A DNA stretch of 64,000 nucleotides, taken from NCBI RefSeq assembly GCF_018459925.1, contig NZ_CP075371.1, positions 3,286,001 to 3,350,000 of the forward strand, read 5' to 3'. The DNA is from Nocardioides aquaticus. Lineage in GTDB: Bacteria > Actinomycetota > Actinomycetes > Propionibacteriales > Nocardioidaceae. Made by a program: the position numbers and the translations under genes. This document shows, in pieces, positions 26,627-37,932 of the stretch (its first letter is position 1; the number at the start of each line of letters is the position of its first letter). Below the pieces are notes generated by a model. That model had not been told where the DNA came from. It saw only the letters and a list, made by a program, of their open reading frames with translations, and did no database searches.

Positions 26627-27243
26627 CGCTGCGCCCGCTGTCCCTGCCGGTCCTCATTCGTACCGCCCGAGGCACGGGTCGGGCCGGACGCCGCGCCGTC
26701 GGCCCGGGGGTCGGCGTCGCCGGTCCGGTCCGGCGCCTGCCCCAGCACCTGCCCCGGTGCGGCGGCGGAGGGCAGGCCGCCGTACGGGTTCGGGGCCGGC
26801 GCCGGCTCGATCGAGAACCGGTCGGTCTCGGCGGCGGCCACGCGCTCGCCGCGGACGTCGCCGCCCAGGGTCAGGAAGGTCGGGACGGTCGGGATGACCA
26901 TGCCCATCCGCTGGGCGCGCTGGGCGATCTGCTGGGGGTCGCGCTGCTCGGCGATGTCCATCCGCAGCGCCTGCTCGCGGGCGCTGAGGGTGTCGGCCTC
27001 GGCCTCGAGCGCGGTGGCCGCGAAGGACGCCTGCTGCAACGAGGTGTTGAACAGCAGCAGCCCGACGACCCCGGTCAGCAGGATCAGGCTGACCAGCCCG
27101 ATGAACGGCACCCGCGCCGGCGGCCGGGCCGTGCGCGGCACCACCCGGAGCCGGGCGCGCTCGACGGCGTCGCCGGCCAGGCGCGGCAGGCGCTGCCGAC
27201 CGGTGGGCTGCCGGGAGGGACCGTGCGGTGCTGGGCTGCTCAT
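26623..27243 (-). CDS. ftsL: FtsL-like bitopic septum protein
   Basis: The protein has 206 residues from ATG 27243, overlapping the rsmH stop (ATGA). A basic proline-rich head is followed by one membrane segment (about 46-66, [16 protein letters not shown]) and a heptad-rich extracytoplasmic region (about 68-110). The tail is disordered, P/A/G-rich. Sequence conservation in this family is low; the call rests on position between rsmH and ftsI and on the topology of FtsL, which forms the FtsQLB complex. Confidence 0.85.
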
Positions 27244-28253
27244 CGGGGTGCTCCGTGGGTCGGGGGCGTACGTCGGGCGTCGCGCGGGTGGCCGGTGGTG
27301 GGCCGGTCGGGGTGGACGCGCTCGGCGGCGCGCAACCGGACCGAGGCGGCCCGGGGGTTGGCTGCGTGCTCCTCGTCGTCGGCCTTCTCGGCCCCGCGGG
27401 TCAGCATCCGCAGCGGCGGCTCCTGGCCCTCGGGGACGAACGGCAGGTCGTCGGGGACGTCGAGGCGGGTGGCGGCGGTGAGGACCTGCTTGACGAGGCG
27501 GTCCTCCAGGGAGTGGTAGGACTCCACGACGATCCGGCCGCCCACGACGAGGCTGGCGACCGCGGCGGGCATCGCGCGGCGCAGCACGCCGAGCTCGTCG
27601 TTGACCTCCATCCGCAGCGCCTGGAAGGTGCGCTTGGCGGGGTGCCCGCCGGTCCGGCGGGCCGGGGCGGGGATCTCGCGGTAGAGCAGCTCGACCAGGG
27701 CCTGCGAGGTGGTGAACGGCGCCTGCTCGCGCTGCCGGACGACCGCGCCGGCGATCTTGCGGGCGAACTTCTCCTCGCCGTAGTCCCGCAGGACCCGGGT
27801 GAGCTCGCGGGCGTCGTAGCCGTTGAGCACGTCGGCCGCGGTGGGCCCGGTCGAGGCGTCCATCCGCATGTCGAGGGGCGCGTCGACGGCGTAGGCGAAG
27901 CCGCGCTCGGCCCGGTCGAGCTGCATCGAGGAGACCCCGAGGTCGAACAGCACGCCGTCGGCGCCCGCGAGGCCGAGCTCGGCCAGGACGTCGGGGACCT
28001 CGTCGTAGACCGCGTGGACGCCGGTGAACCGGTCCCCGAACGGGGCGAGTCGCTCCCGGGCCAGGTCGAGCGCGTCGCGGTCCCGGTCCACGCCGACCAC
28101 GCGGGCCTGCGGGCACCGCTCCAGGACGGCCTCGGTGTGCCCGCCGGCGCCGAGGGTGGCGTCGACGAGGACGGCACCGGGCCGGGCGAGGGCGGGCGCG
28201 AGCAGTGCGACGACCCGGTCGAGCAGGACCGGGGCGTGGGCGGGGGCGGCCAT
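27240..28253 (-). CDS. rsmH: 16S rRNA (cytosine1402-N4)-methyltransferase
   Basis: RsmH (MraW) methylates C1402 in the 16S decoding centre. It has 337 residues from ATG 28253. [13 protein letters not shown] opens the protein, [16 protein letters not shown] is the SAM loop, and [28 protein letters not shown] and [11 protein letters not shown] are family motifs. It lies 8 bp after a small membrane-protein ORF and is coupled to ftsL. Confidence 0.97.
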
Positions 28254-31646: not shown

Positions 31647-33981
31647 GCACCCGACCGACCGGGTCCCGGGTCGGCCTGGCGCTGACCGGGGTGCTCACCG
31701 TCTGGGTCTCGGCCCTGTCCTGGCGGGGATTCACCGAGGCGTGGCCGGCCGCCCTGGTCCCGCTCCTGGGCATCGGGGCCGTCATCGCGCTCAGCGGTGC
31801 GCTCCTGCGCCGCCTCGCGGTGCCCGGGGTGCTCGTCGTGCTCGCCCAGGTGCTCCTCGGCGTCGGGACCTCGAGCCTGGTGCTGACCGGCTCCCCGGTG
31901 CCGCTGGGGGCGGCCGGCAGCGACCTGGCCCTCTCGTTCACCCAGGCGCTCGACTCCTCCACGAGGTACGCCGCCCCCGTCCCGGCCGGTGTGCCGGGCA
32001 TCGAGCCGCTGCTGATCGTCGGCGGCCTGGGCTGCCTGCTGCTGGTGGACGTCCTGGCCTGCACGCTGCGCCGCGTGCCGCTGGCCGGGCTGCCGCTGCT
32101 GGCGGTCTACAGCGTCCCGGTCGGGATCCTCGGCACGGGTGCGAGCTGGTGGGTGTTCGTCGCCGCGGCGGCCGGCTTCCTCTTGATGCTCCACCTCGAC
32201 GCCGGGGACGCGGTGACCCGGTGGGGCCGTGCCCTGGCCGACCCCGAGGACGACCGGGCCGCCGACTCCGCCGGCTTCGGCGTGCGCACGGGTGCCGCCA
32301 CCGCGGGCGCGGGCGCGCTCGGCGCCGGCGCGGTCGCCCTGGCCGTGGTGCTGCCGCTCGCGCTGCCGGCGCTCGACCTGGACCTGCTGGGCGGCGGCAC
32401 CGGCTCGGGCGGGGACGGTGAGATCCTGGTGACCAACCCCATGGTGGACCTGCGACGCGACCTCAAGCAGGGCAGGGACCTCCCCCTGGTCCGCATCCGC
32501 ACCGACGACCCGGACCCGGCGTACCTGCGGATCTCGGTGCTGGCCAACTTCACCGAGAACGAGTGGACCGCCGGGGACCGCAGCGTCCCCGGCAACCAGG
32601 TGGCCGACGGCGCCCTGCCCCCGCTCGAGGGCCTGGACCCCGGGGTGCCCCGGGAGGCCTACGGCTACGAGGTCCAGGTCACCGACGCGCTCTCCTCGAC
32701 CTGGCTGCCGACCCAGGCCCCCGTCTCGCGGGTCGAGGCGCCCGGCGACTGGCGCTTCGACACCAGCACCGTCGACTTCATCGCGGCCTCCGACGACCTG
32801 ACCACCTCCGGCCTGAGCTACGAGATGACGGCGGTGGAGCCGCAGGTGGAGGCCGCCGAGCTGGCCGAGGCCCCCGCCGAGCGCGGCGAGGTCGACTCCC
32901 GGTTCCTCCAGCTGCCGGCCGGCCTGCCCCCCGTCGTCGGGTCGTTGACCAACGACGTCACCGCGGGCCTGGCCAACAACTTCGACCGCGCGGTCGCCCT
33001 GCAGGACTTCTTCCGCACCGACGGCGGCTTCACCTACAGCCTCGCGCAGTCCGAGAACGGCAACGGCGCCGACGAGCTCGCGGCCTTCCTGACCCCGGGT
33101 CCCGACGGGAGGGTGGGCTACTGCGAGCAGTTCGCCTCCGCCATGGCCGTGATGGCCCGCCAGGTCGGGATCCCCTCCCGTGTGGCTGTCGGCTTCCTGG
33201 CCCCCAGCCGACTGCCCGACGGACGCTGGGAGTACAGCTCGCGCGACCTGCACGCCTGGCCGGAGCTCTACTTCCCCGGCGCCGGCTGGACCCGCTTCGA
33301 GCCCACGCCGCCCCAGCGCGCCGCGGACGTGCCCGACTACACCGCCGGCGACCAGGCGCCCGAGCAGCTTCCGGAGGCCCCGGAGGCAGGTCCCGACGCC
33401 GCTCGCGGCGACGAGGCCGACCGGGCCGAGAACCGGCCGCAGCCGGAGGTGGCCGAGCAGCCCGCCGCGGCCCCCGCGGCGGAGTCGTCCGGCCCGTGGC
33501 GCGCGGTCGGCCTGGTCGGGCTGCCGGTGGCCCTGGTCGCGCTGGTGCTCCTGGTGCCCGGTGCCGTACGCCGCCGCCGGCGCGAGCGACGCCTGGCCGG
33601 GGACGTGGTGGAGGGGTGGGACGAGCTGCGGGACACCGCGGTCGACCTCGACGTCCCCTGGCCCGACGACCGATCGCCGCGCGAGGTGCGGGCGGCGGTC
33701 TCGCGCCACCTCGGGACGACCACGGACCTCGACGTCGTCGTGGCGGCGGTGGAGCGCGCGAGCTACGCCTCCCCGGGTCCCGGGGGGAGGCGACCGACCC
33801 CGGGGTCGCCGCCGCCGTCCGTGCCTGCCTGGACACCCTGCAGGAGCGCTCGACGACGCGCCGCAGGCGCCGCGCCCGGTGGTGGCCGAGGACCGTGGTC
33901 ACCCGCCGTGGACGGCGCCGGGGGAAGAGCACAGACGGCGACCAGTCCGCCGACCGCCCCCTGGCAGAGCAGCTGCGCTGA
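31643..33981 (+). CDS. TgpA-like transmembrane transglutaminase, apparent 3' frameshift
   Basis: Several N-terminal membrane helices precede a transglutaminase-like domain with Cys494 (GYCEQFASAMAVMARQVG) and His537 (RDLHAWPELYFPG), then GWTRFEPTP and another membrane helix. TgpA proteins act on the outer face with MoxR and DUF58. The frame from GTG 31643 stays well coded to a G6 run at 33782-33787. After it, sensible coding (EATDPGVAAAVRACLDTLQ) continues one frame back and stops at 33981, just before a hairpin. The uncorrected frame runs to 34243, over the opposing DUF3040 gene. One missing G would give 779 residues. This is probably a sequence error or recent mutation. Confidence 0.85.
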
Positions 33982-33992
33982 CCTGGCCGTGC

Positions 33993-34010
33993 GGTCCGGG
34001 CGCCCGGACC
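33993..34010. terminator. Bidirectional hairpin between the transglutaminase and DUF3040 genes
   Basis: GGTCCGGG (33993-34000) and CCCGGACC (34003-34010) form a perfect stem between convergent genes. It lies 12 bp after the corrected stop of the transglutaminase gene and 17 bp from the DUF3040 stop. Confidence 0.6.
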
Positions 34011-34026
34011 CGGAGGTCGAGGACCG

Positions 34027-34506
34027 TCAGAAGCCGTTGCCCTCGCGGCGACGGCGCCAGCGCTGCTCCATGCGCTCCATGAAGGAGCCGGACGGGCGCG
34101 AGGCGCCCTTGCCGGAGCCCGGCGTACGCCCGCGGGACTTGCGCGGCTTCAGCGAGCGACCGCCGTCGATGACCGCGAGGCCGGGGCTGCCGGCACCGGG
34201 TGCCGCGCCGGAGGCGTCGTCGGGCACCCGGACCTGCGGCTGACCACGCAGCGACGTCAGCGCGAGGGTGGCGCTGCCCAGCATGACCACGAAGCCGACG
34301 ATGCCCACGACGACCTGGTTGGTGATGGCTCCGGTCATCAGCACGACGACCCCGACCACGAACACGACGGCGGCGAGCAGCGCACGGCGACGGGCTGTCC
34401 TGCGCATCGAGGTGCCCCGCAGGGTCGAGGCGAACTTCGGGTCCTCCTCGACGAGCGCGCGCTCCATCTGCTCGAGCAGTCGCAGCTCTTCTTCCGAGAG
34501 CGGCAC
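34027..34506 (-). CDS. DUF3040 membrane protein
   Basis: This 159-residue protein starts at GTG 34506 with GGGAGGA upstream. The DUF3040 start MPLSEEELRLLEQMERAL and DPKFASTL are clear. Two membrane helices (about 42-62 and 65-85) follow. The C-terminal half is basic and disordered (SLKPRKSRGRTPGSGKG). Function is unknown. It lies 53 bp after dinB and may be the last gene of the HEPN-methyltransferase-dinB unit. Confidence 0.92.
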   Translation of the reverse strand: MPLSEEELRLLEQMERALVEEDPKFASTLRGTSMRRTARRRALLAAVVFVVGVVVLMTGAITNQVVVGIVGFVVMLGSATLALTSLRGQPQVRVPDDASGAAPGAGSPGLAVIDGGRSLKPRKSRGRTPGSGKGASRPSGSFMERMEQRWRRRREGNGF

Positions 34507-34559
34507 CGGGTCCTCCCAGGGTCGGTCGTGCCCGGTCGATCCGGGCGTTGGTCGAAAGT

Positions 34560-35825
34560 CTAGGCAGGCCGCTCCACCGGCGGTAGGGACACCGGCGAAT
34601 TCGCCCCACCCCCGAGCAGGCTGGCAGGCCGCACGGCCGCCGAGCCGAACCGCCGCGCGGCCTGGTCGACCGCCCGGTCGGCCTCCGCCCAGCCCACCTC
34701 GCGCTCCCCGAGGACGTGCTGGTGGTGGATCCCCGCGCGGGGTCGCAACCCCTCCACCCGCACCCCGACCAGCCGCAGCCGCTCACCGCGCAGCCCCAGG
34801 GCGTCGTGCAGCGCGACGACGGCAGCGAAGACCTCCTGGGTGGCGTCGGTGGCCTCCCCCAGCGTCCGGGAACGGGTCAGGGTGGTGAAGTCCGAGAAGC
34901 GCACCGTCAGGGCCACCGTGCGGCCCGCGACACCGGCGGTCCGCATCCGGCCGGTGACCGAGGTGGTCAGGCGCAGCAGCTCGCGCAGCACCACGGCACG
35001 ATCGGCCGTGTCACGGCCGAAGGTCGACTGGGCGCCCATGGACTTGTCCGGGTCCTGGGTGACGCCGGCGAAGACGGGGGCGTGCCGCGAGCGCACCTGT
35101 CGCCGGTCCGCGCCCCACGCCAGGGTGTGCAGGTGGGGGCCGAGGTGCTCCCCGAGGTCACGGCGCAGCACCTCGACCTCGGTCCGCGCGAGGTCGCCCA
35201 CCGTGAGGTAGCCCCGACGGCGCAGCCGGTCCCGGGTCTTCTCCCCCACCCCGTGCAGGTCGCCGACGTCGCGGTGGTGCAAGAAGGCCGCCACCTCGTC
35301 GGGAAGCACCACCCGCACGCCGTCCGGCTTGGCGCGGGTGCTGGCCAGCTTGGCCACCGAGACGGTCGCGGCCACCCCGACCGAGCAGGTGATCCGCTGC
35401 TCGTCGGCGATCCGCGCCCGGAGCTGCTCGGCGATCGCCAGCGGGGTGCCCAGGAGGCGGACGGCGCCCGAGACGTCCAGGAACGCCTCGTCCATCGAGA
35501 CGCCCTCCACCAGCGGGGTCACCTGCCGGAAGGTCTCCATCACCGCGGCCGAGACGGTGGCGAACACCGCGTGGTCGGGCTTGAGCACCACCGCGTCCGG
35601 GCACAGCCGCAGGGCGCGCGACCCGGGCATCGCCGAGCGCACGCCGTGGGCCCGGGCCAGGTAGTTCGCCGACAGCACGACCCCGCGGTGCCCGCCACCG
35701 ACGAAGACCGGGGTGTCCTGCAGGTCCGGGCGGTCCCGCAGCGCGACCGAGGCGTAGAACGCGTCCATGTCGACGTGCAGCACCGGGCAGGCCCGCGAGC
35801 GCTCGTAGGCGTCCGGGACGCTCAC
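34560..35825 (-). CDS. dinB: DNA polymerase IV (Y-family translesion polymerase)
   Basis: The enzyme copies past damaged template bases at low fidelity. It has 421 residues from GTG 35825. Catalytic carboxylates are Asp19 in HVDMDAFYAS and Asp112/Glu113 in SMDEAFLDVS. SVGVAATVSVAKLASTRAKPDG is the fingers/palm motif, VGEKTRDRLRRRGYLTVGDLA the thumb helix-hairpin-helix, and a little-finger domain follows. No C-terminal beta-clamp motif of the QLSLF kind is obvious. It lies 48 bp after the methyltransferase gene; the nearest upstream LexA box heads the HEPN gene. Confidence 0.96.
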   Translation of the reverse strand: MSVPDAYERSRACPVLHVDMDAFYASVALRDRPDLQDTPVFVGGGHRGVVLSANYLARAHGVRSAMPGSRALRLCPDAVVLKPDHAVFATVSAAVMETFRQVTPLVEGVSMDEAFLDVSGAVRLLGTPLAIAEQLRARIADEQRITCSVGVAATVSVAKLASTRAKPDGVRVVLPDEVAAFLHHRDVGDLHGVGEKTRDRLRRRGYLTVGDLARTEVEVLRRDLGEHLGPHLHTLAWGADRRQVRSRHAPVFAGVTQDPDKSMGAQSTFGRDTADRAVVLRELLRLTTSVTGRMRTAGVAGRTVALTVRFSDFTTLTRSRTLGEATDATQEVFAAVVALHDALGLRGERLRLVGVRVEGLRPRAGIHHQHVLGEREVGWAEADRAVDQAARRFGSAAVRPASLLGGGANSPVSLPPVERPA

Positions 35826-35873
35826 CGCGCGACCCCGGCCGTGACGGCCGGCCGGACCGGCCCGGGACGTGTC

Positions 35874-36593
35874 TCAGCGGGCGAGCAGGTGGAGCTGGGT
35901 CGCCAGCGGGAGGTACTCCGGGCGCGAGGCCACCGCCCGCTCCAGGTCGAGCAGCGCGGTCGTCGCCCCGGGCTCGGCGTCGAGCAGGGCCCCGGGGACC
36001 AGGTCGGCGAAGACCCGGACGGCGTGCACCTCCCGGTCGGCGAACCCCGCCGTCGCGACGAGGTCGTCCAGCTCGTCGTGGGTGAAGCGGCGTCCGGCGC
36101 GGTCGAGCGGGGCGCCCGGCTCGAGCGCCTCGCGCGCAGCCACGAAGTGCCCGGCCATCGCCCGGGCCAGCACCGCGGCGTGCCGCTGGGCCACCAGGAG
36201 GCTGAGCGCGCCACCGTCACGCACGACCGCACGGAGGGTGTCCAGGGCCGTCCCCGGGTCGTCGACGACCTCGAGCACGCCGTGGCACAGCACGAGGTCG
36301 GCCCCGTCCGCGCCGAGGACGTGGAGCGTCGTGGACAGGTCGCCCTGCACCGCGGCCACCTCGACCCCGCGCTCGCGGGCCCGGCGTGCCAGCGAGGCCA
36401 GGGCGTCGGGGCTCGGGTCGACCACGGTGACCCGGTGCCCGCGCTCGGCGACGGCGACGGCCGAGCCGCCGGTCCCACCGCCGATGTCGAGCACGTCGAG
36501 GGGCCCGGCGTCGAGGACGGGCCGCAGCGCGTCCCACACCACGGCCGTGCGGATCGCGCTCCTGCGCTCGCTGGGTCGCTCCGTCGCCGGCAT
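35874..36593 (-). CDS. Class I SAM-dependent methyltransferase
   Basis: This 239-residue protein starts at ATG 36593. The SAM loop is LDVLDIGGGTGGSAVAVAERG (about 32-52), followed by VVDPSPDALASLARRA, an acidic motif II, and DLVLCHGVLEVVDDP. Insertions after strand 5 (HFVAAREALEPGAPLDRAGRRFT) resemble enzymes acting on small molecules or tRNA, but the substrate is not predictable. It sits between a HEPN gene and dinB with the same orientation. Confidence 0.88.
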   Translation of the reverse strand: MPATERPSERRSAIRTAVVWDALRPVLDAGPLDVLDIGGGTGGSAVAVAERGHRVTVVDPSPDALASLARRARERGVEVAAVQGDLSTTLHVLGADGADLVLCHGVLEVVDDPGTALDTLRAVVRDGGALSLLVAQRHAAVLARAMAGHFVAAREALEPGAPLDRAGRRFTHDELDDLVATAGFADREVHAVRVFADLVPGALLDAEPGATTALLDLERAVASRPEYLPLATQLHLLAR

Positions 36594-36693
36594 GACGCAC
36601 ACCCTAGGAGACCGCCGCCCGATCCGCCCCGCCGCGCCCCGCGGGTCGCGCCCGACGAGGCCGCCGTACGCCGGACGGACGCCCCGGCGCTGC

Positions 36694-37227
36694 TCACCCC
36701 GCGTAGCGGGTCGGGGCGGGCTGGCACGCAGCCCACGACGACGGCACCGCGGCGTGCGGGACCAGGCCCAGCATCTCCTCCACCACCGCCAGGAACCGGT
36801 CGGCGTCGCGGACCAGGTCGTCGGCCTCGCGCTCACCCACCGCGCGCGAGGACCCGGCCTCGGCCGCGGCCCGCTTGCCGGCCCCGGCGGCGAAGAACGT
36901 CGCCCACTCACCGAGCTCCGGTGCCACCTCGCTCAGCAGGACCCAGGCGTTCTTCTGCCGGCGCCCCCGGGACGGCTCGGGACGAGCACGCGCGGCGAGC
37001 AGGGCCGCCGCGGCGCGCAGCGCGGCGACGTGGGCGCAGGCGTAGCGCGTGGCGACGTCGGTGCTGCCGACCGCCTCGCTGAGGGACTCGGCGGACCGCC
37101 CGAGGTAGGAGTGGGTCGTGGCCGGCAGGCTCACCGGTCGCTCGACCACCGCGGTCCCCCGCCCGTGCTGCTGCCCGTGCTGCTGCCCGCGCCGCTGCCC
37201 CGTCCGGTCCTCGCGTCGTGCCGCCAT
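36694..37227 (-). CDS. SAV_6107-type HEPN domain protein under a LexA box
   Basis: The protein has 177 residues from ATG 37227, preceded by GAGGGGA. The head is rich in Q, H and G (RGQQHGQQHGRG). The HEPN core follows: a helix with RYACAH (Arg61 to His66) fits the RX4-6H motif of HEPN ribonucleases. A later helix pair (NAWVLLSEVAPELGEWATFF, READDLVRDADRFLAVVEEML) matches the SAV_6107 family of actinomycetes. A consensus LexA site lies 22 bp upstream, so DNA damage should induce it. The function of this family is not established; RNase activity is an inference. Confidence 0.85.
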   Translation of the reverse strand: MAARREDRTGQRRGQQHGQQHGRGTAVVERPVSLPATTHSYLGRSAESLSEAVGSTDVATRYACAHVAALRAAAALLAARARPEPSRGRRQKNAWVLLSEVAPELGEWATFFAAGAGKRAAAEAGSSRAVGEREADDLVRDADRFLAVVEEMLGLVPHAAVPSSWAACQPAPTRYAG

Positions 37228-37248
37228 GTCGCGTCCCCTCGCCGTCCG

Positions 37249-37264
37249 TCGAACACGTGTTCGA
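37249..37264. promoter_or_regulatory. LexA (SOS) box
   Basis: TCGAACACGTGTTCGA is a perfect 16-bp palindrome and fits the actinobacterial SOS box TCGAAC-N4-GTTCGA. Two further TCGAAC half-sites follow (37261-37266 and 37270-37275). It lies downstream of a -35/-10 pair for the minus strand, so bound LexA would sit over the transcription start of the HEPN gene. Confidence 0.88.
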
Positions 37265-37275
37265 ACGACTCGAAC

Positions 37276-37304
37276 GGTACACCGGTCCGCCGACACCCCG
37301 TCAA
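37276..37304 (-). promoter_or_regulatory. Putative SOS promoter of the HEPN-methyltransferase-dinB unit
   Basis: TTGACG (37304-37299) and TGTACC (37281-37276) are separated by 17 bp on the minus strand. The LexA box begins 11 bp downstream of the -10. Transcription would start at or inside the operator, about 40 bp before the HEPN ATG. Confidence 0.65.
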
Positions 37305-37328
37305 GACCTGTGGCTCACCCGGCGCGTG

Positions 37329-37820
37329 CTAGCGCGTGACCCCAGGCCGCTCGGAGTCGGCGACCCGTCGCAGGAAGAGCGAGACCGGCGGGCGCCACAG
37401 CGCCACCAGCGTCGCGACCTCGACCACCAGGCCGACGACCGACACCACCACGAACGACGTCGGCGGCGACGTGCGGAGGGCGGCCACGGTGGCCAGCACC
37501 ACGAAGGCGATGATCGCGGCCAGGCACCACCGCGCCCAGCCGTGCCCCGCACGGAGGAAGGCCAGCATCAGCAGCGCCGAGCCGACGAAGGTCCCGCAGC
37601 ACACCAGCGCCACCGGGACGAACGACAGCGGGGCGATGGTGCTGTCGGGCGGCTGCCCGGCCGTCCAGGCGTCCATCAGGGGCTCGCGCTGCACCACCAC
37701 CAGGGCCGCGGTGAGCACGCCCACCAGGACCTGGGCCCACACCCCGCGAGCCACCCAGGTCAGGGCCCGCGAACGGGGCGGGCCGGTCGTCGCCGAGGTC
37801 GGCTCCGCTGCTGTGCTCAC
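37329..37820 (-). CDS. Four-helix membrane protein of unknown function
   Basis: This 163-residue protein starts at GTG 37820, chosen because GGGAGA lies upstream; a longer start at 37910 would add a low-complexity head. Four hydrophobic segments (about 22-42, 68-90, 96-116 and 120-142) are separated by short loops, and the C-terminus is basic. I do not recognise a family. It lies upstream of the LexA box region and is transcribed toward it. Confidence 0.72.
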   Translation of the reverse strand: MSTAAEPTSATTGPPRSRALTWVARGVWAQVLVGVLTAALVVVQREPLMDAWTAGQPPDSTIAPLSFVPVALVCCGTFVGSALLMLAFLRAGHGWARWCLAAIIAFVVLATVAALRTSPPTSFVVVSVVGLVVEVATLVALWRPPVSLFLRRVADSERPGVTR

Positions 37821-37932
37821 GTGCTGGTCTCCCGCCGGGGCCGCGCCCCCTGCTCCGCTGTGCCCCCGGCGCCACGGCCGGGTCCGCTGGTCGGTCCGGG
37901 ACGCCCGCACGCCGCCCGTCTAGGGTCCGGGC

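Follow-up and report, generated by a model that had tools for sequence, protein, structure and literature searches.

A LexA box and a putative PafBC-type promoter element ahead of the HEPN_SAV_6107 gene in a probably eroded mutasome locus of Nocardioides aquaticus

Four consecutive minus-strand genes of Nocardioides aquaticus, encoding a HEPN_SAV_6107 protein (HEPN), a methyltransferase (MT), the DNA polymerase DinB, and a DUF3040 protein, lie within the 64,000-nucleotide stretch analyzed here (assembly GCF_018459925.1, contig NZ_CP075371.1, positions 3,286,001 to 3,350,000; termed the window). A first-pass annotation had read them as one SOS-controlled unit headed by the HEPN gene. Our comparison with related loci makes another arrangement probable, in which the HEPN gene is a damage-inducible single-gene unit located beside separately driven MT-dinB and DUF3040 genes, and the locus as a whole is an eroded form of a mutasome locus. 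LexA, bound to a box just downstream of the −10 element, would repress HEPN, and a PafBC-type activator would act through the element TGTCGG-N10-TACCGT; DNA damage would relieve the repression and, at the same time, trigger the activator.

The promoter of the HEPN gene

The LexA box, TCGAACACGTGTTCGA, is a perfect 16-base palindrome, confirming the first-pass annotation; its distance to the ATG at 37227 is 21 bp rather than the 22 bp given there. Judged by composition and conservation, the box is no chance match. With the window's GC content of 0.751, chance would supply 0.048 perfect 16-base boxes across the 4.58-Mb genome, which carries at least seven, i.e., six in the pattern list plus one at C1:2136065 (locus L230). 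Weaker matches, with up to two mismatches, are less informative (385 genome-wide versus 203 for a backwards control), and the shorter box pattern with up to one mismatch occurs in the window at chance level (2 found, 2.06 expected). As the only other window match at up to one mismatch lies at 27437, the statement that dinB has no box of its own nearby was also borne out. The lexA gene of the genome (PF01726 and PF00717) is preceded by five near-boxes, each matching 10 to 11 of 12 bases.

The sample of close HEPN relatives comprised 80 loci of the Nocardioides type (763,612 bases), in which a box was counted when at least 11 of the 12 fixed bases matched within 800 bp upstream of HEPN. The box was kept in 73 of the 74 loci having at least 800 bp of upstream sequence; the sole locus without a HEPN box, L110, has its only box ahead of MT. 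Across the 80 loci 79 perfect boxes were found (0.01 expected), all of them, in our reading, ahead of DUF6504/HEPN, dnaE2, or MT. Beyond the genus, 40 loci were fetched, and 38 of them contained HEPN (37 by tblastn and L168 by hidden Markov model only), the weak family hits L174 and L175 being excluded; a box with at least 11 of 12 matching bases was located within 1.8 kb upstream in 28 of these 38. The check proposed in the first-pass annotation, co-occurrence of box and HEPN gene in other actinomycetes, has thus been run, and such conservation of the box among relatives gives good support to the HEPN gene being under SOS control.

Immediately upstream of the LexA box lies TGTCGG-N10-TACCGT, and a RecA-NDp (PafBC-type) element describes the HEPN promoter better than the single −35/−10 pair TTGACG-N17-TGTACC proposed earlier. 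The letters of that pair are present, but TACCGT is the better −10 and belongs to the RecA-NDp element, and the single-pair reading was dropped. In the accessible parts of the respective papers, the LexA/RecA-independent consensus is given as tTGTCRgtg-8 nt-TannnT (PMC5656591) and the RecA-NDp consensus as the element used by PafBC (PMC6789036, PMC8223512). The order TTGAC, TGTCGG-N10-TANNNT, box recurs in many aligned promoters. Specifically, TGTCRG-N9..11-TANNNT was present in 64 of 103 box promoters in its strict form and in 75 in a relaxed form, whereas 80-mers drawn at random from these loci showed them at 0.2% and 0.34%, respectively. The genome itself holds 87 RecA-NDp sites with up to one mismatch, while the reversed control pattern gives 9; among its ten perfect sites (genes assigned by eye), two lie before DnaQ/UvrC-like and SbcD-like genes and one before a DnaB-like gene. 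A pafB-pafC pair is represented by two WYL matches in tandem (C1:2456616 and 2457653), adjoined by a PafA-like gene (by eye).

A likely counterpart of the HEPN gene is found in Corynebacterium glutamicum. According to a published study, cg2381, a "conserved hypothetical protein," belongs to this regulon and is upregulated on ciprofloxacin (M 3.86), and cg2378, close to it in number, is mraZ (PMC5055667). The PF18726 search gave a family match in C. glutamicum, and two loci of family f4 (L167 and L170) have the order box-HEPN-DUF3040-mraW, for which reasons cg2381 is likely the HEPN ortholog.

LexA boxes were also observed at other places. In L058, L062, L063, and L066, HEPN and dnaE2 are split by an insert (endonuclease I in L058) and a box lies before dnaE2; in L041, L061, L069, and L110, a box lies before MT and no dnaE2 was found. 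A recurrent TCGACCTSTCCTTCGA considered as a "second box" was rejected, as by eye it falls inside the DUF6504 reading frame and the real box is further upstream. In the N. aquaticus genome, perfect or near-perfect boxes accompany three HNH-endonuclease-like genes (L004, L006, and L009, at C1:3044161, 3781948, and 215382), for which no Pfam families were obtained at E ≤ 1e-4 and which we take, by eye, to be of the 13E12 type.

Candidate inner promoters and gene order

The gaps of 100, 48, and 53 bp between the four genes were reproduced by the sequence and open reading frame check, and, in keeping with the annotation, no terminator-like hairpin was found between 33900 and 37900 (0.2 expected). 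The HEPN-headed four-gene SOS unit is not supported in this genome, given conserved −10 elements, putatively promoters, before MT-dinB and before DUF3040. Of 65 relatives, 63 have TANNNT-N6/7-ATG at the MT start (45 with TAGGGT), whereas 2.3% of the ATGs in these loci overall are so preceded; the remaining two (L080 and L089) carry TACTGT-N7-ATG just past the scanned stretch. Upstream of DUF3040, TANNNT, mostly as TAGACT or TACACT, was located at a distance of 30 to 65 bp in 32 of 33 relatives. Since such an element is conserved before MT whereas 48 of 49 relatives showed none ahead of dinB, MT and dinB most likely form a pair, and this pair would be driven by its own leaderless promoter. The first-pass annotation had held that an intervening promoter isolating dinB would speak against its unit; we looked for one, and the conserved candidate before MT-dinB is of this kind. 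As the search for terminators between the genes returned none, MT-dinB may receive some read-through from the SOS promoter. The coordinates of all elements and genes are summarized in Table 1.

Table 1. Genes and regulatory elements of the HEPN locus (window coordinates)
Feature	Position	Strand	Remarks
LexA box, TCGAACACGTGTTCGA, perfect 16-base palindrome	37249..37264	.	Sequence search; conserved among relatives
TTGACG, −35-like hexamer of HEPN promoter	37299..37304	-	TTGAC recurs here in many aligned promoters
RecA-NDp / PafBC-type element, TGTCGGCG-N8-TACCGT	37274..37295	-	One mismatch to TGTCRGTG-N8-TANNNT
TACCGT, likely −10 of HEPN promoter	37274..37279	-	Part of RecA-NDp element
TAGGGT, likely −10 of leaderless MT promoter (TAGGGT-N7-ATG)	36601..36606	-	Conserved in relatives
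TAGACT, likely −10 for DUF3040	34557..34562	-	Overlaps dinB stop; conserved in relatives
HEPN_SAV_6107 protein, 177 aa	36694..37227	-	ATG at 37227; PF18726
MT, class I S-adenosylmethionine (SAM)-dependent methyltransferase	35874..36593	-	Methyltransf_25/11 (Pfam)
dinB, Y-family DNA polymerase IV	34560..35825	-	IMS 2.6e-48, IMS_C 1.4e-25; NCBIfam DNA polymerase IV
DUF3040 / SCO2097-family membrane protein	34027..34506	-	PF11239 4.7e-28

The order widespread in relatives is box-DUF6504-HEPN-dnaE2-MT-dinB-DUF3040, with dnaE2 (1269 aa in L084) sitting between HEPN and MT. We infer that this fuller order is ancestral and that the window locus, in which DUF6504 and dnaE2 are missing, would be its eroded form and not a mutasome locus itself. 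Among 64 Nocardioides-type loci with full flanks (at least 800 bp upstream and at least 4.7 kb downstream), DUF6504 and dnaE2 were both found in 33, DUF6504 only in 6, neither in 25, and dnaE2 alone in none, and the box was retained in 63. Of the 25 loci with neither gene, 10 also yielded no dinB. Outside the genus, the six-gene order follows the box in L162, L166, and L188, and in L179 and L183 it can be followed as far as dinB, at which point the retrieved sequence stops. As indicated by the box, the HEPN gene has kept its damage switch here without DUF6504 and a close dnaE2, as in other such loci.

DUF6504 had no match in the N. aquaticus genome, and the best matches to the dnaE2 of L084 were at 32% for a gene in the window that is presumably the replicative DnaE and at 36% for one elsewhere. 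The latter match lies, together with an ImuB-like gene, in L230 (C1:2136065-2141289) behind a perfect LexA box absent from the pattern list; the start of an ImuA-like frame in this locus gave no Pfam families. In L086 and L090, where no dnaE2 was found, an apparent remnant of a dnaE2-like frame just upstream of MT (by eye) suggests deletion. DUF6504 may be a stand-alone ImuB-C part, for which our own profile comparison gave no support (hhalign of 13 DUF6504 sequences versus 4 ImuB tails, probability 1.8%); against solved structures, it gave only two weak matches (E 2.3 and 2.4).

HEPN, MT, and dinB might lack any common function, a damage-induced HEPN gene merely lying between conserved housekeeping genes. 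We regard this as unlikely, even though the separate −10 elements would fit it, as would the presence of MT and DUF3040 in boxless loci without dnaE2 or dinB matches. Contrary to what it would suggest, HEPN adjoins DUF6504, at 1.5 kb or less, in 49 of the 63 genomes with both places listed (150 HEPN places were listed in total; the 14 genomes with a greater distance are all of family f90). Moreover, HEPN stands ahead of dnaE2 not only in the DUF6504 layout but also in ImuB-like/DnaE2 layouts, i.e., box-HEPN-ImuB-like-DnaE2 in L191, and apparently also in L163 and L181.

Several observations weigh against the arrangement that we consider probable, the single-gene HEPN unit in an eroded mutasome locus. 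Outside the genus, 10 of the 38 HEPN loci lack the box (8 from family f3, with large Streptomyces-sized genomes, and 2 from f4/g6), and SOS control is therefore not intrinsic to the HEPN_SAV_6107 family; the boxless f3 loci agree with the main text of a LexA chromatin immunoprecipitation sequencing study of Streptomyces venezuelae, in which HEPN and DUF3040 are absent (PMC9380542). Even the relaxed RecA-NDp form is missing from 28 of the 103 box promoters, the copy in the window deviates by one mismatch in its gtg part, and of the ten perfect genomic sites, two precede ABC-transporter-like genes and five precede genes not placed in DNA repair. A strict sigma-70 consensus scan of 33900 to 37900 returned no promoters, and outside the genus the MT promoter pattern was present in only 7 of 21 MT loci. 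The assignment of cg2381 rests on position and family match, not on its own sequence. Finally, HEPN occurs without dnaE2 or dinB, which argues against a dedicated polymerase partner; in L187 and L190, none of MT, dinB, dnaE2, or DUF3040 was found beside a boxed HEPN gene.

The HEPN_SAV_6107 protein and its possible role

The protein matches PF18726 (HEPN_SAV_6107) with an E value of 5.8e-36 and 123.4 bits (curated cutoff, 27.2), and it was assigned the four-helix HEPN fold. Its closest named relative is from Nocardioides sp. AX2bis (L035; 92%). No matches were obtained when the sequence was compared to solved structures, and a profile comparison with the ImuB tail was uninformative. In HEPN RNases, the catalytic motif Rx4-6H sits at the end of helix 3, and in the accessible portion of the HEPN survey, the HEPN-M (SAV_6107) row has a "No" in what, judged from neighboring rows, appears to be the motif conservation column and lists no association (PMC3710099). 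In 118 aligned sequences, R119 is conserved at 97%, but at none of positions 118 to 130 does His rank with the three commonest residues. H66 is conserved at 94%, and R61-X4-H66 was considered as a standard HEPN active site and rejected, as H66 is located on the wrong helix, at the start of helix 2, and not in the insert between helices 2 and 3 described for AF0298 and AbiV (PMC3710099, available part). A HEPN-MNT toxin-antitoxin pair was likewise rejected, no MNT nucleotidyltransferase being present among the six window genes scanned with Pfam.

These data bear on the function proposed in the first-pass annotation. RNA-level control by HEPN is possible but unsupported, in view of the survey entry and the lack of a common His at the motif position. 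A single SOS operon combining growth arrest or RNA editing by an RNase-like HEPN with lesion bypass by DinB appears to us the least likely of the alternatives: besides the motif, the position of H66, and the missing nucleotidyltransferase, the −10 elements within the gene row, ahead of MT-dinB and of DUF3040, stand against it. We tentatively favor, at rather less than even confidence, a non-catalytic helical adaptor that would bind nucleic acid or a partner and aid error-prone synthesis. Such an adaptor would be usable with several polymerases and would therefore be found with and without each of them. A bolder proposal, which we hold to be improbable, is that HEPN_SAV_6107 is an overlooked core damage-response effector, induced by release of LexA together with PafBC, that binds nucleic acid (perhaps as an RNase with an alternative site), links translation or the state of RNA to error-prone synthesis, and cooperates with whichever DnaE2 or DinB system a lineage has.

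The DUF3040 protein matches the NCBIfam model NF058603, "SCO2097 family morphological protein," with 145 bits (cutoff, 110). A division or wall checkpoint is conceivable, in which damage-induced HEPN would act via DUF3040 to hold back septation or growth of the wall while repair proceeds. In line with this idea, the proximity of HEPN and DUF3040 is kept where no polymerase was found, e.g., in L167 and L170, where mraW follows; the window locus is close to the dcw cluster (mraW at 27240-28253); and SCO2097 is described in an MreB-organized wall complex in the accessible part of PMC4255298. We nevertheless give it little probability, because DUF3040 has its own −10 element, dcw synteny may be history only, and no DUF3040 was found near HEPN in L187 and L190. 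The dcw cell-division and cell-wall cluster occupies 16.7 to 28.3 kb of the window on the same strand as the locus (mraW via Pfam, the rest by eye). The best NCBIfam model for MT was CmoM, with 86 bits, far below the cutoff of 366. Directly upstream of the HEPN promoter, a small membrane-like protein is encoded at 37329-37910 on the minus strand, with matches at the same place in many relatives; Pfam gave only a DUF805 match below cutoff for it.

Of 394 genomes sampled from the class, 247 contain HEPN_SAV_6107, which has no assigned role as far as we found; within the open-licence literature searched, one paper mentions SAV_6107 and none DUF6504. The LexA and RecA-NDp promoter and the DnaE2 loci make the family a testable part of damage-induced mutagenesis.

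Comparison with known systems

The protein shares name and fold with the HEPN-M (SAV_6107) family of the survey, which is actinobacterial and, in the accessible part, apparently without the standard Rx4-6H motif; in contrast to the row without associations there, HEPN is tied here to SOS and RecA-NDp elements and to mutasome genes (PMC3710099). The promoter resembles the joint LexA and PafBC control of the recA type in mycobacteria, insofar as the available text describes it, in that an SOS box and a RecA-NDp element precede one gene (PMC5656591, PMC8223512). It differs in that the gene is HEPN and that the LexA box immediately follows the RecA-NDp −10. Like the HEPN gene as read here, cg2381 of C. 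glutamicum is SOS induced and close in number to mraZ, but in the part of the source available it is named only as a conserved hypothetical protein (PMC5055667). The gene order is comparable to the DnaE2-ImuB-C-PolY mutasome, described in a recent module list that includes DnaE2-[ImuB-C] systems in Actinobacteria and is reported there only from this phylum; HEPN is absent from its main text (PMC12926913). Common to both is a DnaE2-type polymerase with a small free-standing partner, to which one type adds a Y-family polymerase. DUF6504 and dnaE2 are missing from the window locus itself; its relatives, unlike the listed systems as far as the available text goes, have HEPN between DUF6504 and dnaE2, together with a LexA box and, in many of them, a RecA-NDp element, which suggests that HEPN_SAV_6107 is a part missing from that list.

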